Source: Afipia sp. GAS231 (GTDB lineage Bacteria > Pseudomonadota > Alphaproteobacteria > Rhizobiales > Xanthobacteraceae). Taken from it: a stretch of 64,000 nucleotides of DNA. The notes below the pieces were generated by a model. The model searched no databases, was not told the DNA's origin, and was given only the letters and a program-made list of their open reading frames with translations. Below, piece by piece: positions 8,455 to 60,472 of the stretch (positions are counted from its first letter, which is position 1; the number at the start of each line of letters is the position of its first letter). The stretch lies in the NCBI RefSeq assembly GCF_900103365.1, contig NZ_LT629703.1:1364001-1428000 (forward strand), given 5' to 3'. A program made the translations under genes and the position numbers.

Positions 8455-8473
8455 ACGCGGATCACAACTCGCA

Positions 8474-44946: not shown

Positions 44947-45128
44947 CTCTCCCCCCTCCAGAACTGCGGACGGCCGTCACATTACGTCAAAGTTTGGATT
45001 CTGCAGCTCCGGGCGTGAGTTGCCGCCAATTGCCGTAATCGGCCTGCATTGACCACTTGCCGGGCTGTTGATATCAGTGCGCACCCTCTAAAATCCCTCA
45101 GAAATCGTTGGTTCCGGAGTCTGTCTCC

Positions 45129-45866
45129 ATGGATAATCCCGAACTTCGTACCGATGATCGAGAGTTTTATGCCGGAGCGGTAGATTACTTCGATACTGAA
45201 AACGTACAGCAGATCGGAAAGCATCTCGAGATCGTCCAATCGTATATCGCCGCCATCGCGGATAGTTTGGACGAGTTCTACGCCCACAAAAACGGCAACG
45301 TCCGCTTTGTCGAGATTGGCGCCGGGACTTGCCTCACGTCACTCTCGCTCCGAAAGATGTATCCAAAGGCCAGATTCACATGCGTCGACATTTCGATGTC
45401 GCGGATGCAACAGTTGATTGAAAACTCTGCCAGGCTCGTCGGCGTGGACGGCGGCGATATCGAATTCGCCGAATGCGACATGTCCAACAAGCTGCCGTTC
45501 GGCGACGGCCAGTTCGACATCGTCGTATTCGATGCATCGCTGCATCATTCGCGCAACATGTGGCTCACGCTTTCGGAGTGCAAGCGAATCCTGGCGCCCG
45601 GCGGCGCCGTGGCGGCCTTCCGCGAGCAATATCTGGCGCCGATTTCCGCGAGCTACGCGCTGAAGCGCCTGCTGCTGACGAAAGAAGTTCAATCGGGGGT
45701 GGCCGAAAATGCATATCTGAAGGAACAGTACGCATATTATTTCCTGGCCAACGGCTTTTCGCCGCAGTTCCGTGGAGTCACGCCGGGCGCAAAATGGCGT
45801 TTGCTTTCGCCACTGAATGGCCTGCTTTTTTCCAAGTGGTCGATCTGGGCGCCCGTCACCCGTTGA
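45129..45866 (+). CDS. Class I SAM-dependent methyltransferase (4)
   Basis: A 245-residue methyltransferase from the ATG at 45129. Motif I is FVEIGAGTCLTSLSL near residue 60, with FTCVDIS closing strand two. PFGDGQFDIVVFDASLHH and CKRILAPGGAVAAFRE provide the later motifs. A longer frame from 45108 is possible. It is followed after about 35 bases by an acyltransferase gene, so methylation and acylation of the same glycan are plausible. Confidence 0.83.
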   Translation: MDNPELRTDDREFYAGAVDYFDTENVQQIGKHLEIVQSYIAAIADSLDEFYAHKNGNVRFVEIGAGTCLTSLSLRKMYPKARFTCVDISMSRMQQLIENSARLVGVDGGDIEFAECDMSNKLPFGDGQFDIVVFDASLHHSRNMWLTLSECKRILAPGGAVAAFREQYLAPISASYALKRLLLTKEVQSGVAENAYLKEQYAYYFLANGFSPQFRGVTPGAKWRLLSPLNGLLFSKWSIWAPVTR

Positions 45867-45900
45867 CTTCGTCCGGACGCGAGGCGGTTGGGAGGTTTGT

Positions 45901-46437
45901 TTGAAGGAAGCAATCCGCAAGCTGGTACGCCTTGCGCCGGTAACAATCCTGGTCCGTCTTTCGATGTGGGCGATCGGGGCGGCATTACGCGCTGCGAGCG
46001 TCCTGAAAACCGCGGCGCTGTTTCCGCATGCTGCCGAATTGCCGTATTGTCACTGGTCGGTCACCGTGAAAAACGCTGAAAACATCCGGCTTGGACAGGG
46101 TGTCGTGATCGGACCGAAATGCACGCTCGGTGCCACCGGCGGAATTACGCTCGGCGATCATGTCCGGCTTTCGGAAGGAGTCATGATCGAAAGCGCCGGA
46201 CTGGATTTTACCAGAGATCCTCCCTACCCGCACGTGCACCGGCCGATCTTCATCGAAGAGGGAGTCTGGATCGGCGCCCACGCGGTGATCCTGGCGGGCG
46301 TCACCGTGGGCGCCCGCAGCATCGTCGGCGCCGGCGCGGTCGTCAGCCGCTCCGTTCCTGCTGACACGATTGTTGCCGGCACCGGCGTCAACCAGTGGCC
46401 GCGGCAGGAAGGCCGCACTCACCGCGGCGAAAGATAG
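45901..46437 (+). CDS. Left-handed beta-helix acyltransferase (maltose/galactoside acetyltransferase-like)
   Basis: A 178-residue protein that I start at the TTG at 45901, since GGGAGG lies 6 bases upstream and the domain begins directly (KEAIRKLVRLAP). The N-terminal 45 residues include a hydrophobic stretch, perhaps a membrane association helix. LbetaH repeats run from ENIRLGQGVVIGPKCTLG to EEGVWIGAHAVILAGVTVGARSIVGAGAVV. It likely O-acetylates a glycan. Its end overlaps the convergent PhyH gene by about 19 bases. Confidence 0.8.
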   Translation: MKEAIRKLVRLAPVTILVRLSMWAIGAALRAASVLKTAALFPHAAELPYCHWSVTVKNAENIRLGQGVVIGPKCTLGATGGITLGDHVRLSEGVMIESAGLDFTRDPPYPHVHRPIFIEEGVWIGAHAVILAGVTVGARSIVGAGAVVSRSVPADTIVAGTGVNQWPRQEGRTHRGER

Positions 46438-47333
46438 ACCCGGTTGATGAAGGGATCGATGCCGGCGGGCACGCCATTCGCACCGATGCGTCCGACGGGT
46501 TTGTCCGGTCCGTAGATCGAGTTGCGGAGCGAATACAGCACCTGGAACAATAGGCGCGGCTTCCGCGTCGGCGGAACTCCGCGATGGAAACCATAGGTAT
46601 TTTCGAGAAACGCGGTCCCCGCCTTGCCGGTGAACGTGGTGACGCTGGTTTCACCGAAGGCATCCAGGATTTCACTGTCCTGATAGCGGCGGATCTTGGT
46701 CAGCCTGTCGATGCTCTGCGATCCCGGCACGAACATGTGCGGACCCGAAACCTCGTCGACATCGGTCAGATAGCAGAACAACTTGACGAAGCGGATGTCA
46801 TCGACGTCGCGATGAAACAGCTCGGCCTCTTCAGCTTTGCCGTCCTTGTGCGGCATCGACCACCACGCGGTGATCAGGCTGATCGTGGGTTTGGCACCCA
46901 GAAATCCGGAAACGATGCTCAGCACGTTCGGGTCGTTCGCGATATCCAGTACATGCGGCGCGCGAATGATGGCCTCGTTCGAAAAAAAGGCGACATGGGT
47001 CTGCGGCGGCGCATTATCAGGCGCGACAAACTTGCCGAACTCCGGCCGGTAGGGGTCGGCGCATTCGTTGACCGAAAAGAAGGCGTGCATGGCCTGCAGC
47101 TGGTCCGGCTTGATCAGATTGTTCAGAAACAGATAGCCGCGATCTTTCAGGATGGCCGTCTGGGCCGACGTCTCCCCGGTGCCCCTAGCTTCGAAGACCG
47201 GTAATCTGCTGGCGAGACTGTTGGCCTTGCGTTCGCGCGACGGCACGCCGAGAATTTGCCGCTGCGCATAGAACTGCCGATAGCGCTTGTCGGTCAGGAC
47301 TTTCAAACCCCGTGCGAGCTTTTCTTTCAGCAT
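46419..47333 (-). CDS. Phytanoyl-CoA dioxygenase (PhyH) family Fe(II)/2-oxoglutarate oxygenase
   Basis: A 304-residue non-heme iron oxygenase. The iron triad is H174 and D176 in FHRDVDD and H250 in GFHRGVPP, with R260 placed for 2-oxoglutarate. Such enzymes hydroxylate C-H bonds. In a polysaccharide locus the target may be a sugar, a lipid carrier or an acyl substituent; I know of no defined reaction for this one. The gene is convergent with the acyltransferase gene and is preceded by a methyltransferase on the same strand. Confidence 0.8.
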   Translation of the reverse strand: MLKEKLARGLKVLTDKRYRQFYAQRQILGVPSRERKANSLASRLPVFEARGTGETSAQTAILKDRGYLFLNNLIKPDQLQAMHAFFSVNECADPYRPEFGKFVAPDNAPPQTHVAFFSNEAIIRAPHVLDIANDPNVLSIVSGFLGAKPTISLITAWWSMPHKDGKAEEAELFHRDVDDIRFVKLFCYLTDVDEVSGPHMFVPGSQSIDRLTKIRRYQDSEILDAFGETSVTTFTGKAGTAFLENTYGFHRGVPPTRKPRLLFQVLYSLRNSIYGPDKPVGRIGANGVPAGIDPFINRVYLSPR

Positions 47334-47480
47334 TCCGCCTCACCTTGAAAAGTAAAATCCGGGAAGTGAATCTTCCAGCAATCAACCCAGGTTGGCCGCT
47401 TTAACAACGATCGCGCCGAGCCTGTCAATGCGGCGCAACAACCAGAGCACGCGCTCTCCGATACCCCGCCTTGAGCCATA

Positions 47481-48146
47481 TCAAACCGACAAATAAGGGT
47501 TCGGTGGAAAGGCCGTGGCATCGCTCTTGCGGAGCACATCGACCCCGATGGTCTGGTCCGGCTTTGGCACGCCATGCGCCGACGGCGCCATGTTGCGACG
47601 CAGCAATCTATAGGCGGGACTGGCAAGGAAGAAGCGCGAGAATTCCATCTTGTACGACCGTATTCCCGGCCGGTGCGCATAGTCGTTGTAATAGGGAACC
47701 GGTTCGATGAAGTCGTAGATGAGCAGCAGGCCACCTTCCGCCAGCACCCGGTCGGCTTCGGCGACACACCGCAGATGCAGGCGTGGATCGACCAGATAGA
47801 AACAGAAGCCAAACACGACTAGGTCGAACTGCCCGTCCGAGAACGGCAACGCATCGGCGGTCCCGACTTCGAGTGACAGCGATGGAAACCGGGTACGGCC
47901 GTCGGCAACGGCGCTGGCGGAGGGCTCGACGCCAGATCCGGTCGCGCCAAACCGCTCGCAAATGCTGGCGACCCGATATCCGTTGGCGCAACCGATCTCG
48001 AGGACCGATTTTGGCGCAACCCCCATTTCGTCCAGCGTGATGAGGACGATGTCCGGACCCGGTTCGCGCAGATGCTGCAGATTTCGCCCATACCAAGCGT
48101 CGCCCTCGCTGCTGAGAAAAACGTCCTTCTGGCTGCGCTCTGTCAT
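47481..48146 (-). CDS. Class I SAM-dependent methyltransferase (5)
   Basis: A 221-residue methyltransferase from the ATG at 48146. It has the N-terminal segment FLSSEGDAWYGRN, motif I VLEIGCANGYRVASI, GVEPSASA and PFSDGQFDLVVFGFCFYLVD, then LAEGGLLLIYDF. The SSEGDAWYxRN start is often seen in methyltransferases near PseI/NeuB-type genes (from recall), so it may act on the nonulosonic acid pathway to its right. It lies about 150 bases before the PhyH gene on the same strand. Confidence 0.83.
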   Translation of the reverse strand: MTERSQKDVFLSSEGDAWYGRNLQHLREPGPDIVLITLDEMGVAPKSVLEIGCANGYRVASICERFGATGSGVEPSASAVADGRTRFPSLSLEVGTADALPFSDGQFDLVVFGFCFYLVDPRLHLRCVAEADRVLAEGGLLLIYDFIEPVPYYNDYAHRPGIRSYKMEFSRFFLASPAYRLLRRNMAPSAHGVPKPDQTIGVDVLRKSDATAFPPNPYLSV

Positions 48147-48403
48147 GCGTTCCGCGAATTCAACAAATCGAAGGGTTAAGATCGGCAAACCGGTTTCCAA
48201 GCCCGACCTGACCAAATTCTTGTGCCATTTGGGTCATGTTTTGCCAAGCGCCGGAAATACCTATAGGTCACGCAACGCTGCCCATAAACCGGGTTTCGAT
48301 GAAGTCCAGACCGCCTCACCAGCCTCGTACCGCGAGCCAACCGAATGACGCCGACAAAGGCTGTCCCAGTTGAGACCGATGCTTTGACCAGGAGACGCTG
48401 CTC

Positions 48404-49747
48404 TTGAACGGAGACGGCCGATCAGACCACAGGTCGAACGAGGCCGCCCGGACCGTTGCCGGCAAGCTTGGCGGCGTGCCCGATGGGAATACCCTCGTCA
48501 GAATAGCGGTATATTTTGCAAATTTCGGGTTGTCGAAGGCGGCCGCCTATTTGGCGCCGCTGATTCTGGCCGCCTGGCTCGACAGTTCGTCCTATGGCAT
48601 CATCGAATATGCGTGGTCGTGGGCAGCGCTGGTGGCTACGTTGCTAACGTTCGGGATACCCGCCGCAACACCGCAGCTTTCGCTGTTGCGGCGCCCTGTT
48701 CCGGTGTCGGACATACTCGCGCTTTGCGTGGTCGGCCCCGGCCTGCTGCTGACAACGGCAGCGGTGATTGTCATGCTTGTCGCCAAATCGCCAGCGCAAG
48801 CGGTCGTGCTGAGTGCGTGCACCATCGCACTCGCGCAGATAACGCTGAGCTCCTATAGCCGAACGTTCTCGCATCGAAATCTGGCGCTATGGTTCGAAGG
48901 TCTTTCGATCTTCGGAATCGCCGTCGTCGCGCTTTGCCTCGCATTAACTGGAACTGCGGGCCTGTTGCCGCTCGCCATCGTGTCGGCGCTGGTCGCCGTT
49001 GTTTTCGTGATCGGCGCGTTGGCCCTGTTCGCGCGGCTGCGGCAGACCGAACTGACGACCAGGCTGCGCAGCGCCGCCCGCATCGGACTGCCGCTGCTGG
49101 CATTCACGCTCTCTTCGATCTGGGCCTCCGTCTGCGGTCGCGTCTATATCGGCGCATTCCTCGGAACCGAGGACCTCTCGGTTTATTCCGTCGACTTCCG
49201 TGTCGCCTCCGCGCTGCTGATCGTGCACAGCGTCATCGCGACCGGCCTGTTCGCACGTCTCTACAGCATGCCGTCGCGGCAATACGACCGCTTGCTGAGT
49301 TACTATCTCGCGGCCATCGCGTTGGTGGCCGTTGCGATGATTGGGGTCTTCCCCTTGGTTGTCGGCACCTTTCGCTTCCGCTCGATCGGAACGGACAATA
49401 TCAACGCGGCGATCCAGCTTTTTCCGATTGTAATGCTGCAGGTCTACGCCTGGGGAGCCTGGGCATCGCTTGAGATGCGGCTTGCGCGGACCAGACGGTC
49501 GTCACCCGCTGCTCGAAAGACCATCACCCTCATGCTTGCGATTGCAGCGATACTGGCCGGTCTCGGCACGCAGGGACTGCTCACGCTAACGCTCTGCACG
49601 TTCCTGGTTGCCTTGCAGATGCTGGGCGGCGTCGCGGTTCAACTCTGGACGCTGTGGCGGCGCGGCGCAAAAATGCCTTTTTCAGCAATTGTGTTCGCGT
49701 TTGGTGCGGTTGTGATCGCACTCAGCTCCCAGATTGCCGCAAAATGA
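48404..49747 (+). CDS. Wzx-like polysaccharide flippase (2)
   Basis: A 447-residue membrane protein with about 12 hydrophobic segments, such as FGLSKAAAYLAPLILAAWL followed by GIIEYAWSWAALVATLLTFG, in the pattern of Wzx-type transporters. The frame starts at a TTG (48404), with AGGAGA about 9 bases upstream. It is shorter and unrelated in detail to the first flippase at 40.8-42.4 kb. It heads the plus-strand run that makes the nonulosonic acid, so it may flip that glycan. Confidence 0.82.
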   Translation: MNGDGRSDHRSNEAARTVAGKLGGVPDGNTLVRIAVYFANFGLSKAAAYLAPLILAAWLDSSSYGIIEYAWSWAALVATLLTFGIPAATPQLSLLRRPVPVSDILALCVVGPGLLLTTAAVIVMLVAKSPAQAVVLSACTIALAQITLSSYSRTFSHRNLALWFEGLSIFGIAVVALCLALTGTAGLLPLAIVSALVAVVFVIGALALFARLRQTELTTRLRSAARIGLPLLAFTLSSIWASVCGRVYIGAFLGTEDLSVYSVDFRVASALLIVHSVIATGLFARLYSMPSRQYDRLLSYYLAAIALVAVAMIGVFPLVVGTFRFRSIGTDNINAAIQLFPIVMLQVYAWGAWASLEMRLARTRRSSPAARKTITLMLAIAAILAGLGTQGLLTLTLCTFLVALQMLGGVAVQLWTLWRRGAKMPFSAIVFAFGAVVIALSSQIAAK

Positions 49748-49845: not shown

Positions 49846-50937
49846 TTGGGCAACAACATTCGCAACTCAACGGTGTCTTGTTTGCAAACTAGTCGGGTCG
49901 GTATTCGGGCCAGCGCCAGCAACAAGATTGGTGGCGGGCACATCGTGAGGTGCACGACGCTGGCTTCGGCGCTCGCAAGATTTGGCGCGTCCTGCAGCTT
50001 CTATTCGGATACCGAGACGCTTGGATTTATCCCGCAGGAACCGGCAATCGAGCTCATTGGCGACAGCCAGATCGACGACAAGCTGGTCCATGGCCGGTTC
50101 GGAAAATTCGATATCTTCATCTGCGACCACTACGGACTGGATGCAAGGTTCGAGCGCGCCCTGCGCCCCAATGCTGGGGTATTGGTCGTCATCGATGATT
50201 TGGCCGATCGGCCGCATGATTGCGATTTGCTGGTCGATATGACGCTGAACCGGCCAGGTTCCGTTTACGACGGCCTGCTTCCAAGGTACGCATCCGTACT
50301 CGCGGGGGTCCGGTACGCTCTGGTCCGGGAGGAATTTTCGGCACTTCGCCCGCAAAGTCTCGCCCGTCGCGGCAGCGGCAGAGTCGAACGTATTCTGATT
50401 TCGTTCGGCTTGACGGATCCGGACGGCCTGTGTGCCCAGACTGTCGACCTCGTTCGCGAGATTTGCAGCAAGCTGCCGGATTTCAAGACCGCAGACATCA
50501 TGATCGGATCGCAATCGGATCAGCTTGCCGACTTGCACCGGCACATAAACGGCGACGCGCGCTTCAACGTTCATGTCGGCGCCAGGAATCCATCCGCTAT
50601 CATGGCGCAGGCGGATATTGCGATCGGTGCCGGCGGGACGACGTCGTGGGAACGCTGTTGCCTGGGTTTACCGACAATTCTCGTCTCGATTGCCGATAAC
50701 CAGCAAGCCATCGCAGCGGCCCTTGAGGCAGCCGGCGCCGTGGTTCTGCTGCCTTCGCGTGAATCCTTTCGCGCCGATCTTCCGACGGTGCTGGCGGGGC
50801 TTGCACGAAGTCCCGCCGCAGTCTTGGATCTGGGTGTTGCGGCGGCCGGAATATGCGATGGACGCGGCGCCGAGCGCGTTGCCGAATACATTTTTGATCT
50901 CTATGAGCGCAAGCGCACGCGCGCCGAAAGGGACTAA
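49846..50937 (+). CDS. pseG: UDP-2,4-diacetamido-2,4,6-trideoxy-beta-L-altropyranose hydrolase, PseG/SpsG-like
   Basis: A 363-residue GT-B-fold hydrolase that releases UDP from the altrose-configured intermediate in pseudaminic acid synthesis. Seen are the glycine-rich loop with catalytic-type His (GGGHIVRC, H32), ICDHYGLDA, VVIDDLADR, DLLVDMTLNR, ILISFGLTDPDG and AIGAGGTTSWERCCLGLPTI. The frame starts at a TTG (49846) following AGGGG. The next gene is only 3 bases away. If the 7-position carries formyl rather than acetyl, this hydrolase must accept that variant. Confidence 0.88.
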   Translation: MGNNIRNSTVSCLQTSRVGIRASASNKIGGGHIVRCTTLASALARFGASCSFYSDTETLGFIPQEPAIELIGDSQIDDKLVHGRFGKFDIFICDHYGLDARFERALRPNAGVLVVIDDLADRPHDCDLLVDMTLNRPGSVYDGLLPRYASVLAGVRYALVREEFSALRPQSLARRGSGRVERILISFGLTDPDGLCAQTVDLVREICSKLPDFKTADIMIGSQSDQLADLHRHINGDARFNVHVGARNPSAIMAQADIAIGAGGTTSWERCCLGLPTILVSIADNQQAIAAALEAAGAVVLLPSRESFRADLPTVLAGLARSPAAVLDLGVAAAGICDGRGAERVAEYIFDLYERKRTRAERD

Positions 50938-50940
50938 GAA

Positions 50941-51585
50941 ATGCCGCTGAGGGTTCACGTACTTTGTGCAGAAGGACACCCGGTCGTAGCGTCTCTTCTA
51001 CGTTGGAAAGAAAATCAGGAGACGAACAAAGTCGACGTGATCTTTCGGCCCGAGGATGCGCGAGGCGGCGACATCCTCTTCCTGATTTCATGCCCTTTCA
51101 TCATCGATGACAATATCCGCTCTCGATACGGAAAAACACTGATCGTTCATGCCTCCGATCTTCCGATTGGACGAGGATGGTCGCCGATGGTCTGGGAGGT
51201 GATTCAGGGTGCCAAATCAATCACCGTGACGCTGCTCGAAGCTGCGGAAAAGATCGATAGCGGCGCAATCTGGAAGAAGCAGAACTTTCAGATCGCAGAT
51301 CATGAACTATACGACGAGATCAACGAAAAGCTTTTCGGTATTACATGCGAGTTGATGAACTTTGCAGTCGTCAATTTCCGTACCGTCATTCCAGTCCCGC
51401 AGGATGATCGAGCCCCCTCCTACCATCGCAAACGAACGCCTAACGACAGCAAAATCGATCCGGATCGAAGCATTCGGGAACAGTTCGATCTACTGAGAAT
51501 TTGTGACCCTTTGCGCTTCCCCGCATTCTTTGAACTGAATGGCCAAATGTATGATATCGAGATACGAAAACGACCGCGAAGCTAG
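50941..51585 (+). CDS. Formyltransferase-family protein in the PseH position
   Basis: A 214-residue protein with the N10-formyl-THF-dependent formyltransferase fold. The core is IVHASDLPIGRGWSPMVW, with H70, and later KIDSGAIW, with D106; these fit the catalytic His and Asp of methionyl-tRNA or sugar N-formyltransferases. The Asn of the usual N-x-H motif is replaced by Ile68. The gene is 3 bases after pseG and before pseI, exactly where PseH (N-acetyltransferase) is often found. I infer formylation of the 4-amino group of the PseC product, giving a 7-N-formyl pseudaminic acid. It is too short and differently placed to be tRNA formyltransferase. Confidence 0.75.
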   Translation: MPLRVHVLCAEGHPVVASLLRWKENQETNKVDVIFRPEDARGGDILFLISCPFIIDDNIRSRYGKTLIVHASDLPIGRGWSPMVWEVIQGAKSITVTLLEAAEKIDSGAIWKKQNFQIADHELYDEINEKLFGITCELMNFAVVNFRTVIPVPQDDRAPSYHRKRTPNDSKIDPDRSIREQFDLLRICDPLRFPAFFELNGQMYDIEIRKRPRS

Positions 51586-51740
51586 GACCAGCGCCTCAAA
51601 ACAGTTGGTGTCTCCGGGCTAAAGAGGTATAAGTGCCGAACATGAAATGAACTCCATGTCAGCGCACCCGGAATCTAGCTACCGAAGCGAGTAGAGTTTG
51701 CCGGGAGTCGCGTTGTCATCGATATGACGCGGTATCCTCG

Positions 51741-52799
51741 ATGGCTTCCAAAACTGCGACGTTTGAGATAGCGGGACGGCCGATAGGCCCAGACTACCCA
51801 CCCTACATTATTGCAGAGATATCGGCGAACCACCAAGGAAAGTTGGAGAAGGCTCTCGACTTGCTGGAGGCTGCGGCTGCGACCGGAGCCGACGCGATCA
51901 AGATTCAAACCTACACGGCCAACACCATCACCATCCCTCACGAAGGCGACGACTTTCGTATCAAGGGAGGGCTATGGGACGGATATCTGCTTTACGATCT
52001 CTACAAGGAAGCGGAAACGCCTTACGAGTGGCACGCGGCCTTGTTTGCCAAGGCGCGTCAGCTTGGTATCACGCTGTTCTCGACCCCGTTTGACGAGACG
52101 GCAGTCGATCTGCTCGCCGGCCTTGATGCGCCTGCCTACAAGATCGCTTCCTTCGAAGTCATCGATCTGCCCTTGATCGCGTATGCGGCAAAGCATGGCA
52201 AGCCGATAATCATCTCAACCGGCATGGCCGATCTCGGCGAGATCCAGGAAGCCGTGGAAACCGCGAGAAGCAATGGCGCCGGCGGGGTTGCGCTGCTGCA
52301 TTGTACAAGCGCCTATCCCGCGCCGATTGAAGAGGCCAACGTGCGTACTGTCGCACATCTCGGAGCGGCGTTCGGCGCCGTATCGGGGCTTTCCGATCAC
52401 GCACCAGGGTCGGCCGCTTGTGTCGCATCGATTGTGCTGGGCGGTTCCATCATCGAAAAACACTTTACGATTTCACGCGCCGAAGGCGGCCCGGACGCTG
52501 CGTTTTCACTTGAGCCACACGAATTCAGGAGGCTTGTCGATGATTGCAGGTCCGCTTGGTCTGCGCTCGGCACGGTCGGCTACAGTCTGACCCAAAGCGA
52601 AAAAGGCAGCACACGATTTCGCCGGTCGATCTACGCGGTCAAGCCGATCAAGGCGGGGCAACTTCTGACGAACGAGAACGTTCGTTCGATAAGACCGGGA
52701 TTCGGGCTTCCGCCAAAATATTTGCCTGAGATTATCGGACGCACGGCCGCCCGTGACATAGCCTATGGCGAACCGCTAACGTGGTCGGCGATCGCTTGA
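51741..52799 (+). CDS. pseI: Pseudaminic acid synthase (NeuB family)
   Basis: A 352-residue enzyme condensing the 2,4-diamino-altrose sugar with phosphoenolpyruvate. The TIM-barrel part has IIAEISANHQGKLEKAL, KIQTYTANTITI (the QTYT pattern is PseI-like, while NeuB has QTFK), STPFDETAVD, YKIASFEV and LSDHAPG, then EKHFTISR. The C-terminal SAF/antifreeze-like domain runs from about residue 290 (RRSIYAVKPIKAGQLL). It lies about 155 bases after the formyltransferase gene. Confidence 0.92.
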   Translation: MASKTATFEIAGRPIGPDYPPYIIAEISANHQGKLEKALDLLEAAAATGADAIKIQTYTANTITIPHEGDDFRIKGGLWDGYLLYDLYKEAETPYEWHAALFAKARQLGITLFSTPFDETAVDLLAGLDAPAYKIASFEVIDLPLIAYAAKHGKPIIISTGMADLGEIQEAVETARSNGAGGVALLHCTSAYPAPIEEANVRTVAHLGAAFGAVSGLSDHAPGSAACVASIVLGGSIIEKHFTISRAEGGPDAAFSLEPHEFRRLVDDCRSAWSALGTVGYSLTQSEKGSTRFRRSIYAVKPIKAGQLLTNENVRSIRPGFGLPPKYLPEIIGRTAARDIAYGEPLTWSAIA

Positions 52800-52855
52800 T
52801 AACAACAACGTAACTCCCGCACTCGTCCGGACCTCGTAGTCTTCGGTGGATCAAC

Positions 52856-54145
52856 ATGTCAATTCGCTACGCCAAATCGGAAGAATTTCTTGCCCGCGCC
52901 CGGCACTCGATACCTCTGGGAGCGCAGACCTTCTCGAAGAGCGTTACCCAGTATCCGTTCGGCGTATCGCCGTATTTCGTTACGCGCGGAAAAGGATCGA
53001 AGGTTTGGGACATCGATGGCAACGAATACATCGATTTCATCAATGGGCTCTGTTCCGTGACGCTTGGCTATTCCGATGCGGACGTCAACGCAGCCGTGGC
53101 AACCCAGCTTGAGGACGGCACGATCTACTCGCTCTCTCACCCGCTCGAAACCGAAGTCGCCGAGCTGTTGTGCGAGATCATTCCAAGCGCGGAGATGGTT
53201 CGCTTCGGAAAGAACGGATCCGATGCGACCGCCGGCGCCGTGCGCATCGCCCGCGCTTTCACCGGTCGCGACCACGTGCTGACCTGCGGCTACCATGGCT
53301 GGCAGGACTGGTACATTGGCGGGACCGCCCGCAACAAGGGCGTGCCGCAGGCGAGCCGCGACCTGACGCACGCCTTCCCCTACAACGACCTGCCTGCCCT
53401 CGAGAAAATGCTCGCGCAGTTCAAGGACGGGGTTGCCGCGGTCATCATGGAGCCGATGAACGTGGCGCAGCCCGAGCCCGGGTACCTTGAAGGCGTAAAG
53501 GCGCTCACGCACGCCGCAGGCGCGCTTCTGGTGTTCGACGAGACGATAACGGGCTTTCGCTACGCGCTCGGTGGCGCGCAGGAACTGTTCAACGTTGCCC
53601 CCGATATCACGACTCTCGGCAAGGGCATTGCGAACGGCTTTCCACTCTCGGCCGTATGCGGCCGCCGCGACGTGATGCAGGAAATGGAAGAGGTGTTCTT
53701 TTCCTTCACCATGGGCGGCGAGACCCTGTCGCTGGCCGCCGCCAAGGCAACGATCGCAAAACTCCGGCGCGAGCCCGTCATCGCAACAATGCGCAAGCGC
53801 GGATCGCGCATCCTGACCGAGGTGACGAAGCTGATCGACAAGCACGGCATCGGTCACTTCACCTCAACGAGCGGCGATCCCACATGGTCGTTTCTGTTGT
53901 TCAGGGATTTGGAGGGAACCAACGCGTTCGAGATCAAGACGCTCTGGATGCAGGAGATGATGGAACGCGGGCTCCTATCCGTCGGCACGCACAATATCAG
54001 CTATGCCCACAGCGAAGCGGACGTCGATGCGCTGGTCGCGGCTTACGACGCCATCTTCCCCATCCTGCGGCAAGCCGTCGATCACCGCGCGATCCGTCAA
54101 TACCTCAAATGCGAGCCGCTGGAGCCGCTGTTCCGCGTTCGCTGA
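52856..54145 (+). CDS. Class III PLP aminotransferase (glutamate-1-semialdehyde aminomutase-like)
   Basis: A 429-residue fold-type I aminotransferase of class III. Seen are DIDGNEYIDF, VRFGKNGSDATAGAVRIAR, the pyridoxal pocket YHGWQDWY, FDETITGFR and the lysine in TLGKGIANGFPLS (K256). It is not likely the heme-pathway HemL, as it lies inside a pseI-spsF operon and differs in its C-terminal part. It may aminate a carbonyl made by the aldo/keto reductase that starts 16 bases later. The actual substrate is unknown. Confidence 0.82.
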   Translation: MSIRYAKSEEFLARARHSIPLGAQTFSKSVTQYPFGVSPYFVTRGKGSKVWDIDGNEYIDFINGLCSVTLGYSDADVNAAVATQLEDGTIYSLSHPLETEVAELLCEIIPSAEMVRFGKNGSDATAGAVRIARAFTGRDHVLTCGYHGWQDWYIGGTARNKGVPQASRDLTHAFPYNDLPALEKMLAQFKDGVAAVIMEPMNVAQPEPGYLEGVKALTHAAGALLVFDETITGFRYALGGAQELFNVAPDITTLGKGIANGFPLSAVCGRRDVMQEMEEVFFSFTMGGETLSLAAAKATIAKLRREPVIATMRKRGSRILTEVTKLIDKHGIGHFTSTSGDPTWSFLLFRDLEGTNAFEIKTLWMQEMMERGLLSVGTHNISYAHSEADVDALVAAYDAIFPILRQAVDHRAIRQYLKCEPLEPLFRVR

Positions 54146-54161
54146 CGGCAACGCTCCCGGC

Positions 54162-55052
54162 ATGATCGCGCAGCGCGATACCAAAATCTCCTCCGTGCCC
54201 AGAATTGGACTGGGCACGGTGCAATTTGGAATCGACTACGGCGTTTCCAATACGGCCGGCCAGGTTTCGCCGTCCGAAGTATCCGGCATTCTTGTGACCG
54301 CTGGTGATGCCGGCATCAAGGTGCTCGACACCGCCGCCAGCTATGGCAATGCGGAAGAGGTTCTTGGGCGCGCGCTACATCCCGGTGATCGCTTTACCAT
54401 CGTGACCAAGACGCTGCCGCTGAGCCACGGTCTCGAACAGGTCGAAAGCCGGGCGCGGCGTTCGCTGGAATTTCTCGGCACGAAAACGGCCGACGCCATT
54501 CTCGTGCACGCCGCCCAGGACCTGTTGGGGCCCGATGGACCTCGCCTCTGGGCGATGCTGCAGCGGCTGCGCGACGAAGGCCTGTTCAGGCGGATCGGCA
54601 TCTCCGCTTACTTCGCCGATGGCCCGCTGCAACTGGCGCGGCAATACCGGCCCGACCTCATGCAGATTCCCTTCAGCCTGCTCGATCAGCGCCTGCTGCA
54701 GAACGGCGAGATGGCGTCGCTGAAAGAGCTCGGCGTCGAAATTCACGTCCGCTCGATCTTCCTGCAGGGGCTCCTGATGATGGATCCTGCAAAACTCCCG
54801 GCCAGCCTGACCCACGCCGGCCCCGCGCTGGCGGCCACCCGCGCCCGGATCGGGGAGGCTGGGCTCACCCCGGTGACGGCGGCGATCGGATTTACGCTTG
54901 CCCGCCGCGAGGTCGATATCGCCGTCGTCGGCGTCACCAAACGCGACGAACTATCGGAGATCGTGACCGCGGCAGCCGCAGACCTTCCCGAGTTCGACTG
55001 GCCGGCCTGCGCGATCGACGACGCGATCACCCTCACCCCATCCCGCTGGTAG
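54162..55052 (+). CDS. Aldo/keto reductase in the nonulosonic acid operon
   Basis: A 296-residue TIM-barrel oxidoreductase from the ATG at 54162. The N-terminus has RIGLGTVQFGIDYGVSN, then the catalytic Asp and Tyr pattern DTAASYGNAEEVLG, FTIVTKTLP with the catalytic-type Lys, and ILVHAAQDLL. The C-terminal VVGVTKRDELSEIV binds NADP phosphate. It lies between the class III aminotransferase and the cytidylyltransferase. I infer a ketone or alcohol conversion on the nonulosonic acid or its precursor. Confidence 0.82.
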   Translation: MIAQRDTKISSVPRIGLGTVQFGIDYGVSNTAGQVSPSEVSGILVTAGDAGIKVLDTAASYGNAEEVLGRALHPGDRFTIVTKTLPLSHGLEQVESRARRSLEFLGTKTADAILVHAAQDLLGPDGPRLWAMLQRLRDEGLFRRIGISAYFADGPLQLARQYRPDLMQIPFSLLDQRLLQNGEMASLKELGVEIHVRSIFLQGLLMMDPAKLPASLTHAGPALAATRARIGEAGLTPVTAAIGFTLARREVDIAVVGVTKRDELSEIVTAAAADLPEFDWPACAIDDAITLTPSRW

Positions 55053-55071
55053 CCCGAATACGAGAACGCCC

Positions 55072-55782
55072 ATGATCCTCGCCATCCTCCAGGCCCGCAT
55101 GTCCTCCACCCGGTTGCCCGGCAAGGTGCTGCGGCCGATCCTCGGCCGTCCGATGCTGGGCTGGCAAATCGAGCGCATCCGGCGGTCGAGGACCATCGAC
55201 AGGCTGGTGGTGGCAACGAGCGAGGAAGCTTCCGACGATGCCATCCAGGCGTTCTGCGACGCCAATGGCGTGTCGTGTTATCGCGGCGCGCTGCATGACG
55301 TGCTGGCGCGCTTTCACGGCGCCGTGAAAGCGTTCGGGCCGGCCGAGCAGGTGATCCGGCTGACCGGCGACTGCCCGCTGATCGACTGGACCATCATCGA
55401 CGCCGCCGTCGACCTGCAGAAGCGCGAGGGCTCCGACATCGCCGGCAACGGCATCAATCGCACATATCCCGATGGCCTCGACGTTGAGGTGGTTTCATTT
55501 TCGGCGCTCGACCGCGCCCATCGCGAAGCGACCGAACCGGGCCATCGCGAGCATGTGACCCAGTATATCTACCACAATCCCCAGAAGTTCCGGCTGGCGC
55601 ATCTGACCCAGACGCCGGATCTCGGCCTGTTGCGCTGGACGGTGGATACCCCGGCCGATTTCGAGATGGTCGAGAAGGTGTTCGCAGGACTGGCCGGCCT
55701 CAACAACAATTTCTTGCAGCAGGACGTGCTTGGGTATCTCGACCAGCATCCCGAAATCGTCGCGATCAACGCGCCGGCCTGA
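55072..55782 (+). CDS. SpsF-type cytidylyltransferase (probable CMP-pseudaminic acid synthetase)
   Basis: A 236-residue protein of the CTP_transf_3 group. The nucleotide-binding loop is ILQARMSSTRLPGKVL at residues 4-19, followed by RLTGDCPLIDW and the DLGLLRWTVDTPADFEMV region characteristic of SpsF. SpsF-like proteins take the place of PseF/NeuA in many clusters and activate the nonulosonic acid with CTP. No other cytidylyltransferase is in the window, so this is the best candidate for the CMP-activation step. It is the last gene of the run. Confidence 0.82.
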   Translation: MILAILQARMSSTRLPGKVLRPILGRPMLGWQIERIRRSRTIDRLVVATSEEASDDAIQAFCDANGVSCYRGALHDVLARFHGAVKAFGPAEQVIRLTGDCPLIDWTIIDAAVDLQKREGSDIAGNGINRTYPDGLDVEVVSFSALDRAHREATEPGHREHVTQYIYHNPQKFRLAHLTQTPDLGLLRWTVDTPADFEMVEKVFAGLAGLNNNFLQQDVLGYLDQHPEIVAINAPA

Positions 55783-55830
55783 TGCCCTTCCCCGCGCCTA
55801 AGGCGAATATTGGCTCCAAAGACGTGCTGT

Positions 55831-56964
55831 TCAGGACAGGGCTTTGCGCCGGGAAAATGCCTGGTGATATTGTTCGGCAACGTCGGAGGCGAATTTACGC
55901 CACCCAAAAAGGCTGACGGCGCGCGCCTTGCCGGCCGCCCCCAGACGCGTTGCGAGGTCGGGGTCGTCGAGTAGCCGTGAAATGGCGGCAGCCAGTGCAG
56001 CTTCGTCGCGCGGAGCGACGGTCAGACCTTCCAGACCGTCCCGGGCAACCCAGGGAACTCCAGTGGGCAGCTCCGTATTCACTACGGGAATACCGCTGCA
56101 CATAGCTTCCAACTGGACTATTCCGAATGCTTCGGCTTCGTTGACCGACGGAAGGACGAACAGATCGGCGGCGCCGAAAGCCTGCCGTTGCTCTGCCCGC
56201 GACAGATATCCGGCAAAGGTCACGCGATCAGCCACGCCGGATGCGGTCGCGATGCCCCGTAATTCGGCTTCGAGCGGGCCGGTACCAGCGATCAGGAGGT
56301 GTGCGTCGACATGCCTGAGCGCCTTCAGGAGGACGTCGAAGCCCTTGTACGGCACCAGACGTCCGCAGGCGACAATCAGGCGCGAATGCTTCTGCCTGAG
56401 CTCGCTGATTGGCGCGGCGTCTTCCGGGGCCTGGTTGCACCAGAAATCCGTGTCGATGCCGTAGGGCGCCACCACGCATTTGCTGCTGTAGTTCGCCAAA
56501 TACTCCGATTGCTCAACGATCGAGGGATGGGAGACGATGATGCAATCGGCCCGCTCGACAGATTTTTTCAGCAGCGGATGAAAAATCGGACGAAAGAGGT
56601 TCCTGCCGGTGATCTCCGCATGCCAGTGGATCACGAGAGCCTTGCTGTCGGGGATCCCGAGCAGCCCGATATCGACGAATGGAAAAGGCGCGTGAAATGC
56701 GATGACGTCGGCGTCTCTGACGCGCCGCAGGAACACTGGAATAAACCCCGGCGAGATGGGCAGCGAGCTGAATTGCGCCAGCGTTGTCGTCCGCTCGACC
56801 GGAAGACCGTCGACCTCAACCGTGTTCCCTAATCCGAAATAGCGGCAAACCAGCAATGAAGACGAATCGCCGTCAGGAGTTCCAGCCGTAATGCGCGCGA
56901 TTGCTTCCACAATACCCCCGTGATGATCGGGCGTATAAACCTTGAAGGCGTGAAGAATTCGCAT
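55831..56964 (-). CDS. Glycosyltransferase family 4 (GT-B) enzyme
   Basis: A 377-residue retaining glycosyltransferase from the ATG at 56964. It starts RILHAFKVYTPDHHGGIVEAI, and the donor lobe has IVACGRLVPYKGFDVLLKAL, LLIAGTGPLEAELRG, VTFAGYLSR and LPSVNEAEAFGIVQLEAM, a standard GT4 E-x7-E region. It is convergent with the cytidylyltransferase gene. The donor is unknown; the neighbouring Gmd suggests a 6-deoxyhexose. Confidence 0.88.
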   Translation of the reverse strand: MRILHAFKVYTPDHHGGIVEAIARITAGTPDGDSSSLLVCRYFGLGNTVEVDGLPVERTTTLAQFSSLPISPGFIPVFLRRVRDADVIAFHAPFPFVDIGLLGIPDSKALVIHWHAEITGRNLFRPIFHPLLKKSVERADCIIVSHPSIVEQSEYLANYSSKCVVAPYGIDTDFWCNQAPEDAAPISELRQKHSRLIVACGRLVPYKGFDVLLKALRHVDAHLLIAGTGPLEAELRGIATASGVADRVTFAGYLSRAEQRQAFGAADLFVLPSVNEAEAFGIVQLEAMCSGIPVVNTELPTGVPWVARDGLEGLTVAPRDEAALAAAISRLLDDPDLATRLGAAGKARAVSLFGWRKFASDVAEQYHQAFSRRKALS

Positions 56965-57083
56965 GAGATAAGCACACCATTCGCATCGCAAATGCGGTCT
57001 AATGCACATGATTCCAAATTCGACGCAATCAAAATCGGCTAGTTCCGACTATACAACCAAGGTCGCCCGGCCTCTACCGAAGG

Positions 57084-58103
57084 TTAGCGCTGCGCGAGTT
57101 TCAAGTCTCGCTCGGCCATCGTTCGTGCCAGTTCCGAAAAGGTCATGGCGGGACGCCAACCAAGTTCCCGCTGGGCTTTCGTCGCATTTCCCACCAGCGG
57201 CATTAGTTCGTTCGGACGATAAAAGTCCTTGTTGATCCGGACGATCGTGCGGCCTGTTTTGATATCGATCGCCCTCTCATCGATACCGACACCCTGCCAC
57301 GCGAGATCGAGGCCAACCGTTTCGGCGACGATCTCGCAGAAGTCGCGCACCGAATGCGAACGGCCGGTCGCAAGCACGTAGTCGCTAGGCTTCTCGCTCT
57401 GCAGCATGCGCCACATTCCCTCAACGTAGTCAGCCGCAAAACCCCAATCCCGGCGGGCGTCCAGATTTCCGAGTTCGATGCAATCACGATTGCCCAGCGC
57501 AATTGCCGCGAAGCCGTGGGTTATCTTGCGCGTGACGAATTCAAGGCCGCGCAACGGACTTTCGTGATTGAACAGGATACCGCTGCAGGCAAACACGCCG
57601 TCGACATTGCGGAAATTGACCGTCATCCAGTGTGCGTAGAGCTTTGCCACTCCGTATGGACTTCGCGGACAGAAGGGAGTGGTTTCGGACTGCGGCGACT
57701 CGTTGGCGTCACCGAACATTTCCGATGTCGACGCCTGGTAAAACCGGATCAACGGGTTGAACTTGCGTACCGCCTCGAGGATTCGGGCCGCGCCCAGCGC
57801 GTCGGCGTCGCCGGTCAGGACCGGCGTTTGAAATGACGAACTCACGACGCTTTGCGCAGCCAGATTATAAATCTCGTCCGGCCGTTCGCGTTCAATGACC
57901 GAAAGAATGTTCGATGAGTCCAACAACTCAAGATCAGCGATCTTGACGTCACGATCGACACCGACCTCTCTCAGTCGCCAGATATCCCTTGCGGCAGCTG
58001 GACGCGATCCGCCGACGACGGCGTAGCCCTTACTCAGGAGAAGCCGCGCAAGATACGCGCCATCCTGTCCGGTAACACCTGTTATGAGCGCTCGCCGCGT
58101 CAT
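57084..58103 (-). CDS. GDP-mannose 4,6-dehydratase-like SDR (copy 2)
   Basis: A 339-residue Gmd-family enzyme: [16 protein letters not shown] near the start, GGSRPAAARDIWRL at the site where Gmd copy 1 has [31 protein letters not shown], and the catalytic [12 protein letters not shown]. The altered nucleotide-binding segment and shorter length separate it from copy 1. It may supply GDP-4-keto-6-deoxymannose for rhamnose or another 6-deoxyhexose; no Rmd or second Fcl is present nearby. It is divergent from pseB. Confidence 0.82.
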   Translation of the reverse strand: MTRRALITGVTGQDGAYLARLLLSKGYAVVGGSRPAAARDIWRLREVGVDRDVKIADLELLDSSNILSVIERERPDEIYNLAAQSVVSSSFQTPVLTGDADALGAARILEAVRKFNPLIRFYQASTSEMFGDANESPQSETTPFCPRSPYGVAKLYAHWMTVNFRNVDGVFACSGILFNHESPLRGLEFVTRKITHGFAAIALGNRDCIELGNLDARRDWGFAADYVEGMWRMLQSEKPSDYVLATGRSHSVRDFCEIVAETVGLDLAWQGVGIDERAIDIKTGRTIVRINKDFYRPNELMPLVGNATKAQRELGWRPAMTFSELARTMAERDLKLAQR

Positions 58104-58326
58104 CCTCTCAGATCGCTACGAGTGTTACTGGCCGCAACCAATCGCGGGGCAGGCATTCGTCAAATCGACGGCCGACCTCGTTCAGCAGTTGCGCAATGGA
58201 GCAGGTCGTCATAATTCTCGCTCTTTAAGCAACCTCGAACCATCGCGCAACCACCAAGCGCCCTCTTTTCCTTGCAATATCGGCTCGAACTGACTACTAC
58301 CGGGCGAATTTTTCAATAACCCCGAA

Positions 58327-59328
58327 ATGGAACGTATGCTTCAACAGAAGTCAATCCTGATCACGGGCGGCACCGGCTCGTTTGGTACCGAACTCGTCAA
58401 GGTTCTGCTGCGGGATCACGATCTCAAGAAGATCATCATCTATTCGCGCGACGAATACAAACAGGCGATGATGGCCCAATCATTGCCTGACAGCCGACTT
58501 CGCTTTTTCATCGGTGACGTGCGCGACCTCGCCCGGTTGACGATGGCGATGCGCGAGGTCGACTTGGTGGTTCACGCGGCCGCGATGAAGCATGTGCCGA
58601 TCGCCGAATATAATCCTATGGAATGCGTGAAGACCAACATCATCGGTGCCGAAAACGTGGTCCAGGCCGCGATGAGCAATCGCGTTCCAAAGGTCATCGC
58701 GCTGTCCACCGACAAGGCCTGCAATCCGGTGAACCTTTACGGCGCCACCAAGCTCGCCTCGGACAAGATCTTCGTCGCGTCGAACAATCTGTCGGGCAGC
58801 ACGGGAACCAGGTTTGCGGTCGTCCGCTACGGCAACGTGGTGGGATCGCGCGGCTCCGTCGTGCCGTTTTTTCGCGATCTCATCGCCAAAGGCACCGACC
58901 ATCTGCCGATCACCGATCCGCGAATGACCCGCTTCTGGATCACGCTAGACAAGGGCGTCGATTTCGTTCTCAACAGCGCGGAGATGATGCAGGGCGGCGA
59001 GCTGTTCGTGCCGAAGATCAAATCGATGTCTATCGTCGATCTGGCGAAGGCCATGGCGCCCGGCATCCCGCAACGGGTCGTTGGCATCCGGCCGGGCGAA
59101 AAGCTCCACGAGGTGATGATCACCGAGGACGACGCACGCTTCACGGTCGAGATGGCGGACCGCTATATCGTTCAGCCGGCGCTTGCATGGTGGAGCTACA
59201 AGGGCTACGATGACAAGGGCAAAGCGGTCGCTGAGGATTTCCGATACGCCAGCGACAACAATCCGGACTGGCTCGACGCTGATGCGCTGAAGGTCATGCT
59301 CGACAATCCGACAAGCGTTCATGGCTAA
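58327..59328 (+). CDS. pseB: UDP-GlcNAc 4,6-dehydratase (inverting), PseB
   Basis: A 333-residue enzyme that makes UDP-4-keto-6-deoxy-L-IdoNAc, the first step to pseudaminic acid. Motifs: ITGGTGSFG (residues 12-20), SRDEYKQ, FFIGDVRD, HAAAMKHVP, the catalytic set STDKA (D129, K130) and LYGATK (Y138, K142), and VGSRGSVVPFF. This layout without a long membrane domain marks PseB/FlaA1. An ATG at 58336 is an alternative start. It overlaps pseC by 8 bases, so the two enzymes are made together. Confidence 0.95.
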   Translation: MERMLQQKSILITGGTGSFGTELVKVLLRDHDLKKIIIYSRDEYKQAMMAQSLPDSRLRFFIGDVRDLARLTMAMREVDLVVHAAAMKHVPIAEYNPMECVKTNIIGAENVVQAAMSNRVPKVIALSTDKACNPVNLYGATKLASDKIFVASNNLSGSTGTRFAVVRYGNVVGSRGSVVPFFRDLIAKGTDHLPITDPRMTRFWITLDKGVDFVLNSAEMMQGGELFVPKIKSMSIVDLAKAMAPGIPQRVVGIRPGEKLHEVMITEDDARFTVEMADRYIVQPALAWWSYKGYDDKGKAVAEDFRYASDNNPDWLDADALKVMLDNPTSVHG

Positions 59329-60472
59329 GCCTTCCATTCCCTACGGCAAGCAGGTTATCGACCACGACGACATCGCGGCGGTAGACGAAGCCTTACGGTC
59401 GGCATGGCTGACCACCGGTCCCCGGGTCGGCGAGTTCGAACGTGCATTTGCAGAGTTTTGCGGAGCCGCGGAAGGCGTCGCGGTCAACAGCGGAACCGCG
59501 GCACTCCACGCCGCGATGCGCGCCCTCAAGATCGGCGCCGGCGACGAAGTCATCGTCCCCGCGATCACATTCGCCGCCTCCTCCAACGCAGTTGTCTATG
59601 AAGGCGGCACGCCGGTTTTCGCCGATATCGAGACCGATACGCTGCTGATCGATCCCGCCGACGTCGAAGCGAAGATTACCCCACGCACCAAGGCGATCGT
59701 TGCCGTCGACTATGGCGGACAGCCCGCCGATTATGATGCCCTGCGCGCGCTGGCGGCCAAGCGCGGCATCAAGATCGTGTCCGATGCCTGTCATGCACCG
59801 GGCGCGACCTACAAGGGCCGCCAGGTGGGAACCATCGCCGACCTCTCGGCCTTCTCGTTTCATCCGGTGAAACATCTCACGACCTGCGAAGGCGGAATGA
59901 TCCTGACCGAGGATGCCGGGATGGCGCAGCACATGCGGCGCTTCCGCAATCATGGCATCGATTCCGACCATCGATCGCGGGAAAAAACCGGCACTTTCGC
60001 CTACGACATGGTCGAGATCGGCTACAATTACCGGCTGCCGGACATTCAATGCGCGCTGGGAATTTCGCAGCTGAAGCATTTGCCGCAGTGGCTGGTCAGG
60101 CGGCAGGCGATCGCTGCGCGGTATGACCAAATGTTTGCCAGCCTGCCGTTCGCGCGGCCGCTGGTGACGCATCCGGACCGTACCAACGCCTATCATCTGT
60201 ATGTCATCCGCCTCGACCTCTCGGCTCTGAAGATCGACCGCCGCCGCGCCTTCGATCATCTCAGGGCGTCCGGGATCGGCGCCAACGTGCACTACGCCCC
60301 GGTCTACCATCACAGCTTCTATCGCGAGCGGTTTGGCTACCAGATTGGCCTGTGTCCTCGCGCCGAGGCGGTTTATCAGGAAATCCTGACATTGCCGATG
60401 TTCCCTACCATCACCGATGCAGAGATGGATTACGTCGTCGGGACCGTGAGCGAGCTCAGGAACCTTTCCTGA
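59321..60472 (+). CDS. pseC: UDP-4-amino-4,6-dideoxy-N-acetyl-beta-L-altrosamine transaminase, PseC
   Basis: A 383-residue PLP aminotransferase of the DegT/DnrJ/EryC1/StrS family. Seen are IPYGKQVIDHDDIAAV at the start, VNSGTAALHAAMRAL, VSDACHAPGATYKG and the lysine in FHPVKHLTTCEGG (K184), which fits PseC closely. It aminates C4 of the PseB product. The next expected enzyme, PseH, is missing in the window; a formyltransferase-family gene lies in the pseG-pseI unit instead. Confidence 0.94.
   Translation: MAKPSIPYGKQVIDHDDIAAVDEALRSAWLTTGPRVGEFERAFAEFCGAAEGVAVNSGTAALHAAMRALKIGAGDEVIVPAITFAASSNAVVYEGGTPVFADIETDTLLIDPADVEAKITPRTKAIVAVDYGGQPADYDALRALAAKRGIKIVSDACHAPGATYKGRQVGTIADLSAFSFHPVKHLTTCEGGMILTEDAGMAQHMRRFRNHGIDSDHRSREKTGTFAYDMVEIGYNYRLPDIQCALGISQLKHLPQWLVRRQAIAARYDQMFASLPFARPLVTHPDRTNAYHLYVIRLDLSALKIDRRRAFDHLRASGIGANVHYAPVYHHSFYRERFGYQIGLCPRAEAVYQEILTLPMFPTITDAEMDYVVGTVSELRNLS

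Follow-up and report, generated by a model that had tools for sequence, protein, structure and literature searches.

Pseudaminic acid (Pse) is a common bacterial surface sugar, and antibodies, phages and hosts recognize it partly by the acyl group that it carries. Four Protein Data Bank (PDB) entries (6ci2, 6ci4, 6ci5 and 6edk, with chains of 192 and 217 residues), which we take to be from Anoxybacillus, carry the molecule name formyltransferase PseJ. In a 2018 study in ACS Chem. Biol., PseJ reportedly formylates the 4-amine of a uridine diphosphate (UDP)-sugar, replacing the acetyltransferase PseH in a pathway to 7-formamido-Pse. Given this precedent, a formyltransferase that replaces PseH is not a new idea. 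Here we describe a 64,000-nucleotide stretch of the genome of Afipia sp. GAS231 (NZ_LT629703.1, positions 1,364,001 to 1,428,000; hereafter the window) in which a formyltransferase gene lies in the PseH slot between pseG and pseI. The lineage of this protein is labelled clade A, and a second lineage found in Pse loci is labelled clade B; both labels were coined in this analysis. We propose, with a probability of roughly 0.8, that the clade A protein is an N10-formyltetrahydrofolate (formyl-THF)-dependent sugar N-formyltransferase acting in place of PseH, so that the pathway would yield 7-formamido-Pse.

PseJ is similar in size to the clade A protein and has the same proposed job. However, the kinship between the two is weak (E 0.04-0.05 with a single sequence, about 1e-5 with a family profile), and against a clade A profile PseJ scores below 1zgh, ArnA, several Fmt proteins, formyl-THF dehydrogenase and VioF. 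Judged by sequence score rather than by a joint tree, clade A is probably a separate lineage. Among the known systems compared, the best sequence match of the clade A protein is the N-terminal domain of ArnA (E 3e-9), the UDP-4-amino-4-deoxy-L-arabinose formyltransferase, which carries out 4-N-formylation of a UDP-4-amino sugar. ArnA differs from clade A in that it is longer, carries a second fused domain, uses a different sugar and possesses the catalytic Asn (PMC4388273; here and below, PMC numbers refer to excerpts of the papers). The hydrolase domain of formyl-THF dehydrogenase is like clade A in having Ile at the Asn position together with His, Asp and Ser (PMC4388273), but it is a hydrolase, or transfers formyl to a carrier protein, and is not a sugar enzyme. 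PseH, a GNAT protein described by TIGR03585, shares with clade A the pseG-pseI slot and the proposed acceptor amine, but its fold is unrelated and its donor is acetyl-CoA.

In excerpts of the open-licence PubMed Central literature we found no description of a role for clade A. As far as literature searches go, what appears to be new is the separate lineage, its breadth and the Asn-less site as a family trait, along with a natural swap of the gene and the link of clade B to PIG-L proteins.

A Pse pathway with a formyltransferase in the PseH position

An earlier note, made from the sequence of the window alone, described a Pse pathway without PseH. Profile searches agree with this account of the gene content. 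PseB, PseC, PseG and PseI all score above their NCBIfam cut-offs, and a SpsF-like cytidylyltransferase is present (Table 1). The formyltransferase gene starts 3 bases after pseG and precedes pseI, as that note had it, and its product narrowly passes PF00551 (26.8 bits against a gathering threshold of 26.1). The formyltransferase family profile matches the genome, searched as one contig of 7,584,136 bases that is 99.99% complete, just once, and the single NeuB-family match (PF03102) in this genome is the pseI of the window. No PseF (TIGR03584, cut-off 206) was identified, the best scores being 30 bits in the window and 31 bits elsewhere in the genome.

No match to PseH (TIGR03585) above the cut-off of 93 was identified in the genome. 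The profile gives three matches, scoring 26-35 bits, to proteins that look like general GNATs or RimJ, and the one at L003 is flanked by a processing-peptidase-like gene and an apparent ATP synthase subunit, as judged from reading frames. A GNAT profile built by iteration also finds no match within the window.

In the proposed pathway PseB and PseC would convert UDP-N-acetylglucosamine (UDP-GlcNAc) to UDP-4-amino-4,6-dideoxy-L-AltNAc (AltNAc, N-acetylaltrosamine), and the clade A enzyme would formylate the new 4-amine. PseG would then strip UDP from the formylated sugar, PseI would condense phosphoenolpyruvate with the freed sugar, and the cytidine monophosphate (CMP) sugar would be made by the SpsF-like enzyme. 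The predicted end product is Pse acetylated on N5 and formylated on N7. What was observed is gene content, fold, residue conservation, gene position and a natural swap; from these we infer which reaction takes place, which amine is formylated, in what order the steps run and what glycan results. Formylation at the PseC-made amine, suggested in the earlier note, thereby gains comparative support from gene position, the rarity of GNAT genes beside clade A, and the exchange described below.

Exchange between collinear loci

A locus from the same genus (L197, genome G642) has the order PseG-GNAT-clade B-PIG-L-PseI where the window has PseG-clade A-PseI. Identity between the two loci is 87% for PseB, 84% for PseC (over part of the protein only), 83% for both the SpsF-like protein and PseI, 86% for a class-III aminotransferase, 70% for an aldo/keto reductase and 65% for Wzx, but only 38% for PseG. 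At the DNA level (blastn) L197 is collinear, at about 70-80%, with window positions 44488-44900, 45047-48146, 48508-49677, 51782-58104 and 58266-59819, the outer ends of this collinearity being the ends of the fetched L197 DNA. Between positions 49677 and 51782 there is a single match of 139 columns. The G+C content of 51000-51999 is 0.518, whereas the preceding and following kilobases have 0.60 and 0.58, respectively.

The difference between the window and L197 looks like the exchange of one cassette, and it assigns one and the same role to the GNAT and the formyltransferase. Considering this swap, which is the strongest evidence that we have, the role of clade A is very probably 4-N-formylation of the PseC product. 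A cleaner contrast is that between L193 (PseG-clade A-clade B-PseI-PIG-L) and L196 (PseG-GNAT-clade B-PseI-PIG-L). A swap between collinear loci suggests how surface sugars may change, by exchange of one small cassette.

Distribution of clade A and its association with GNAT genes

A single-sequence search of a protein database identified 1649 relatives at E 1e-3 or better, and among the best 120 of these the nearest named relative is from Bradyrhizobium sp. (P0002, 80% identical). The corresponding scan of genome contigs with a single sequence found no relatives, but an alignment-based scan in which each species was represented by one genome yielded 159 confirmed loci. The best 80 of these 159 were kept and are the clade A loci referred to throughout; a search of plasmids gave no match. 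PseI is present in all 80 loci, PseG in 78, PseC in 71 and PseB in 69, and in 79 of the 80 PseI starts at most 150 bases from the end of the clade A gene. The common order is PseB-PseC-(gap with a weak cytidylyltransferase match)-PseG-formyltransferase-PseI. At five other loci (L156 and L160-L163) the slot between PseG and PseI is occupied by PseH.

In a sample of the genus, clade A occurs in 4 of 40 genomes, all four with PseI, and a fifth genome has PseI without clade A. At the level of the class it occurs in 3 of 289 genomes. The sample of the phylum (349 genomes) contains seven matches to the clade A profile, six of them within 1.5 kb of PseI; the seventh (G527, 77 bits) keeps the Asn, lacks a PseI match and is of another type. 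PseH scores above the cut-off in none of these six clade A genomes, and clade A occurs in none of the 11 PseH-positive genomes, counts too small to carry much weight.

In most clade A loci (71 of 80) the stretch within 3.5 kb of PseI holds clade A alone; in eight it also holds a GNAT, and in one it also holds clade B, PIG-L and a GNAT. For the 71 loci without GNAT, PIG-L or clade B, we would expect no free amine other than that made by PseC. For comparison we used 51 alphaproteobacterial loci (50 with PseI above the cut-off and L147 of genome G105, added for its clade A match), 49 of which lack clade A. A GNAT lies within 3.5 kb of PseI in 32 of the 49, alone in 28, with clade B and PIG-L in three and with PIG-L in one; the other 17 have none of the four genes (15 loci) or clade B and PIG-L only (2 loci). 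The contrast between 9 of 80 and 32 of 49 gives a Fisher p of 2e-10, a value that ignores kinship. When only loci with full 3.5-kb flanks are counted, 7 of 62 with clade A and 30 of 40 without it have a GNAT. The GNAT profile was rebuilt from its own matches, which makes its scores partly a matter of construction; the seed profile alone finds a GNAT in 8 of the 80.

On a tree of PseI (113 rows, after 18 short or truncated loci were dropped and L033 was left out for want of a usable PseI frame), the clade A label changes at least seven times on starred branches, indicating that the gene was repeatedly gained, lost or exchanged. The PseI of the window pairs with that of a Methylobacterium clade A locus (L024), within a group of 21 that includes 13 GNAT-only loci.

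The public names of several clade A proteins are probably misannotations. P0121, P0142, P0143, P0241 and P0352 are named 'UDP-glucuronic acid dehydrogenase', and others are named 'methionyl-tRNA formyltransferase'. Under the role proposed here, a large family with such names among its members would receive a testable function, from which the acyl group of a common surface sugar could be predicted.

Fold and active site

The predicted structure of the clade A protein is confident, and in each fold comparison all 50 of the matches listed are N10-formyl-THF enzymes, including 1zgh, HypX, Fmt, ArnA, WbkC and formyl-THF dehydrogenase. Asp106 and His70, already singled out in the earlier note, are invariant in 80 of 80 relatives, and Ser72 is present in 79. 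That note had also pointed to Ile68 in place of the usual Asn. The substitution is real, but it is no peculiarity of this gene, as position 68 is Val in 75 relatives, Ile in three, Leu in two and Asn in none.

The Asn is held to be crucial in Fmt, ArnA and GART (PMC4388273). However, formyl-THF dehydrogenase has Ile104 at this position, with His106, Ser108 and Asp142 as the proposed catalytic residues, and changing Ile104 to Asn leaves less than 10% of hydrolase activity (PMC4388273). In HypX the triad's His and Asp are both present, and a second Asp does the work of the Ser (PMC6802093). Clade A catalysis probably relies on Ser-His-Asp as in formyl-THF dehydrogenase, and not on the Asn-His-Asp of Fmt and ArnA. 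Catalysis without the Asn would be mechanistically unusual for a sugar formyltransferase.

Evidence against the proposed role and alternative explanations

Several observations weigh against the proposed role. The usual catalytic Asn is absent from clade A, and the protein reaches none of the NCBIfam equivalog cut-offs for Fmt, ArnA and PRK06988 (56, 57 and 51 bits against 201.5, 777 and 316). The exchange with L197 brings clade B and PIG-L along with the GNAT, and as these genes also differ it is not a swap of one gene for one gene. Among the 80 clade A loci, 18 lack 3.5 kb on both sides of PseI. When kinship is taken into account, avoidance of GNAT by clade A is suggestive only: the PseI tree yields seven independent pairs, with 0 same, 4.3 opposite and 2.7 equal (median p 0.125). 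A strict either-or rule does not fit the data, since over the whole fetched flanks GNAT and clade A occur together in 12 of the 80 loci, L051 (positions 7995-9212) encodes clade A and a PseH above the cut-off (117 bits) in a single reading frame, and L037 contains GNAT, clade B, PIG-L and clade A. TIGR03585 is narrow, scoring above its cut-off in 2 of the 289 genomes of the class sample, where PseI is above its cut-off in 51, and a PseH too divergent for this profile is conceivable. Finally, a hexapeptide acyltransferase gene (45817-46437) provides a non-GNAT candidate within the window.

Another acyltransferase, either a distant GNAT encoded elsewhere in the genome or this hexapeptide protein, could acetylate the PseC amine, with the formyltransferase acting on a different amine such as the product of the class-III aminotransferase encoded next to pseI. 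Hexapeptide enzymes that acetylate UDP-4-amino sugars exist, the window holds the aminotransferase, the aldo/keto reductase and the hexapeptide gene, and the genome has the three weak GNAT matches. Additionally, over whole flanks the class-III aminotransferase is present in 8 of 12 clade A loci with GNAT compared with 6 of 68 without, so that this GNAT may serve another amine; counted the other way, GNAT occurs in 8 of 14 clade A loci with the aminotransferase and 4 of 66 without, which hints at a further amine. However, in 66 of the 80 clade A loci the fetched DNA contains no class-III aminotransferase, and clade A therefore cannot generally depend on that enzyme. The GNAT matches in the genome look general or RimJ-type, and none lies in the window by the GNAT profile. 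The hexapeptide gene is also present in L197 (71% identical), beside a GNAT, and just 10 of the 80 clade A loci have a frame resembling it; it therefore does not go with the formyltransferase or with the swap. We consider this explanation unlikely.

The residues at the Asn position raise the further question of whether the protein might hydrolyse formyl-THF or be a relic without activity, with N7 of Pse free or otherwise acylated. Val, Ile or Leu at this position is reminiscent of the formyl-THF dehydrogenase hydrolase (PMC4388273). Such an outcome is very improbable, as the clade A family is strongly conserved, with invariant His and Asp and a constant place in Pse loci, where a hydrolase has no evident use.

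A PseG-formyltransferase-PseI locus (L040) is carried by Aeromonas bivalvium CECT 7113. According to an excerpt of PMC8835325 the O-antigen of this strain contains no Pse, which also counts against the proposed role; the sugar would be used elsewhere or not made there.

Clade B, PIG-L and a possible second acylation site

We examined 11 clade B loci at length (L037, L097, L105, L107, L118, L119, L191, L192, L193, L196 and L197), a non-random set in which L118 and L119 are near-copies. A PIG-L gene is present in all 11, identified with Pfam PF02585 in the two tested and with a home-made profile in the rest. Five of the 11 have GNAT without clade A, three have clade A without GNAT, one has both and two have neither. 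L113 has PIG-L and GNAT but no clade B. The structure 1zgh from Clostridium thermocellum, deposited as a methionyl-tRNA formyltransferase, falls in clade B (E 5e-63 to L105), a lineage that, unlike clade A, goes with PIG-L in Pse loci.

PIG-L proteins are de-N-acetylases, and in the simplest reading PIG-L would free the GlcNAc-derived amine (N5), which clade B would then formylate. We infer that clade B targets N5 and that the amine made by PseC (N7) is the one used by GNAT or clade A. There is about an even chance, in our view, that the genes around pseG and pseI in Pse loci form an exchangeable module for N-acylation at two sites. At N7 a PseH-type GNAT would add acetyl or clade A would add formyl, while at N5 the acetyl would be kept or be exchanged for formyl by PIG-L and clade B. 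Both clades would transfer formyl without the canonical Asn. The window would then represent a module with clade A only (N5-acetyl, N7-formyl), L197 with GNAT, clade B and PIG-L is predicted to give N5-formyl and N7-acetyl, and L191, L192 and L193 with clade A, clade B and PIG-L are predicted to give a diformyl product. If this is correct, the acylation of a glycan could be predicted from genome sequence.

The association with PIG-L also bears on whether clade A might itself formylate N5, after loss of the GlcNAc-derived acetyl, rather than N7. In L037 a single open reading frame encodes both clade A and PIG-L, and the locus holds GNAT and clade B as well; a divergent clade A lies alongside PIG-L in L147. 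However, no PIG-L-like frame was identified in the window at the thresholds used, and over the whole fetched DNA 2 of the 80 clade A loci contain PIG-L (one of them within 3.5 kb of PseI), a gene that accompanies clade B instead. N5 is thus a highly improbable target for clade A.

Formylated Pse in described glycans

One clade A protein (P0352) is named from Pseudomonas aeruginosa, a species from which formylated Pse O-antigens have been reported; a search for them in the open-licence literature gave no supporting paper. Another (P0195) is named from Pseudoalteromonas distincta. Pse with a 7-formamido group, which the earlier note had given as a natural glycan component, is indeed described in the polysaccharide of P. 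distincta KMM 638 (Muldoon 2001, cited in PMC3210612 and PMC7281560); the strain that P0195 comes from may differ from this one. PseG has been reported in genomic islands of P. distincta KMM 3548 and 2-2A-13, not KMM 638 (PMC9966250). The Pse of Psychrobacter marincola carries lactyl on N5 and acetyl on N7 (PMC7281560) and lends no support to the formyl reading.

Formyltransferases have also been noted in flagellin islands, and a study of these islands in Geobacillus comes closest to describing the arrangement seen here. In Geobacillus, types II-IV contain Pse enzymes without PseH and type III strains have a formyltransferase (PMC5109656). For a different sugar, another formyltransferase stands where an acetyltransferase would be, and formyltransferases are mentioned for an Alteromonas macleodii island (PMC5109656). 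Enterobacterial flagellin islands contain formyltransferases as well (PMC4875605).

Gene content of the window

The features of the Pse block are listed in Table 1. Two minus-strand genes, encoding a glycosyltransferase and a GDP-mannose-dehydratase-like protein, lie between the SpsF-like gene and pseB. The product of the block is probably destined for a surface polysaccharide, because glycosyltransferases and a Wzx-like gene (a weak Pfam match) adjoin it.

Table 1. Features of the Pse block and its left border, in window positions
Feature	Positions	Strand	Evidence
Wzx-like flippase, left border of swapped segment	48404..49747	+	PF13440 20.4 bits, below gathering threshold 23 (weak)
Segment with pseG and formyltransferase, exchanged in L197	49678..51781	+	break in blastn collinearity
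pseG, UDP-sugar hydrolase	49846..50937	+	TIGR03590 229 bits (cut-off 154)
Clade A formyltransferase, 214 residues, in PseH slot	50941..51585	+	
pseI, pseudaminic acid synthase	51741..52799	+	TIGR03586 485 bits (cut-off 340)
Class-III (glutamate-semialdehyde-like) aminotransferase	52856..54145	+	PF00202 166 bits; PRK06209 402 bits, below cut-off 486
Aldo/keto reductase	54159..55052	+	PF00248 108 bits; start 54159 chosen inside a longer open reading frame
SpsF-like cytidylyltransferase, probable CMP-Pse synthetase	55072..55782	+	PF02348 120 bits
pseB, UDP-GlcNAc 4,6-dehydratase (inverting)	58327..59328	+	TIGR03589 523 bits (cut-off 408)
pseC, aminotransferase making the C4 amine	59321..60472	+	TIGR03588 445 bits (cut-off 424)

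Two methyltransferases, the hexapeptide acyltransferase and a PhyH-like oxygenase are encoded at 45108-48215, adjoining the Pse block, and further decoration of the glycan by these genes is possible. The class-III aminotransferase and the aldo/keto reductase lie beside Pse genes at 52856-55052 in the window and in 14 of the 80 clade A loci; the aminotransferase may supply a further amino group on the nonulosonic acid. In L104, L110, L140 and other alphaproteobacterial loci, the SpsF-like and class-III aminotransferase matches fall within one long frame, and these loci often have a GNAT match after PseG in the same frame.

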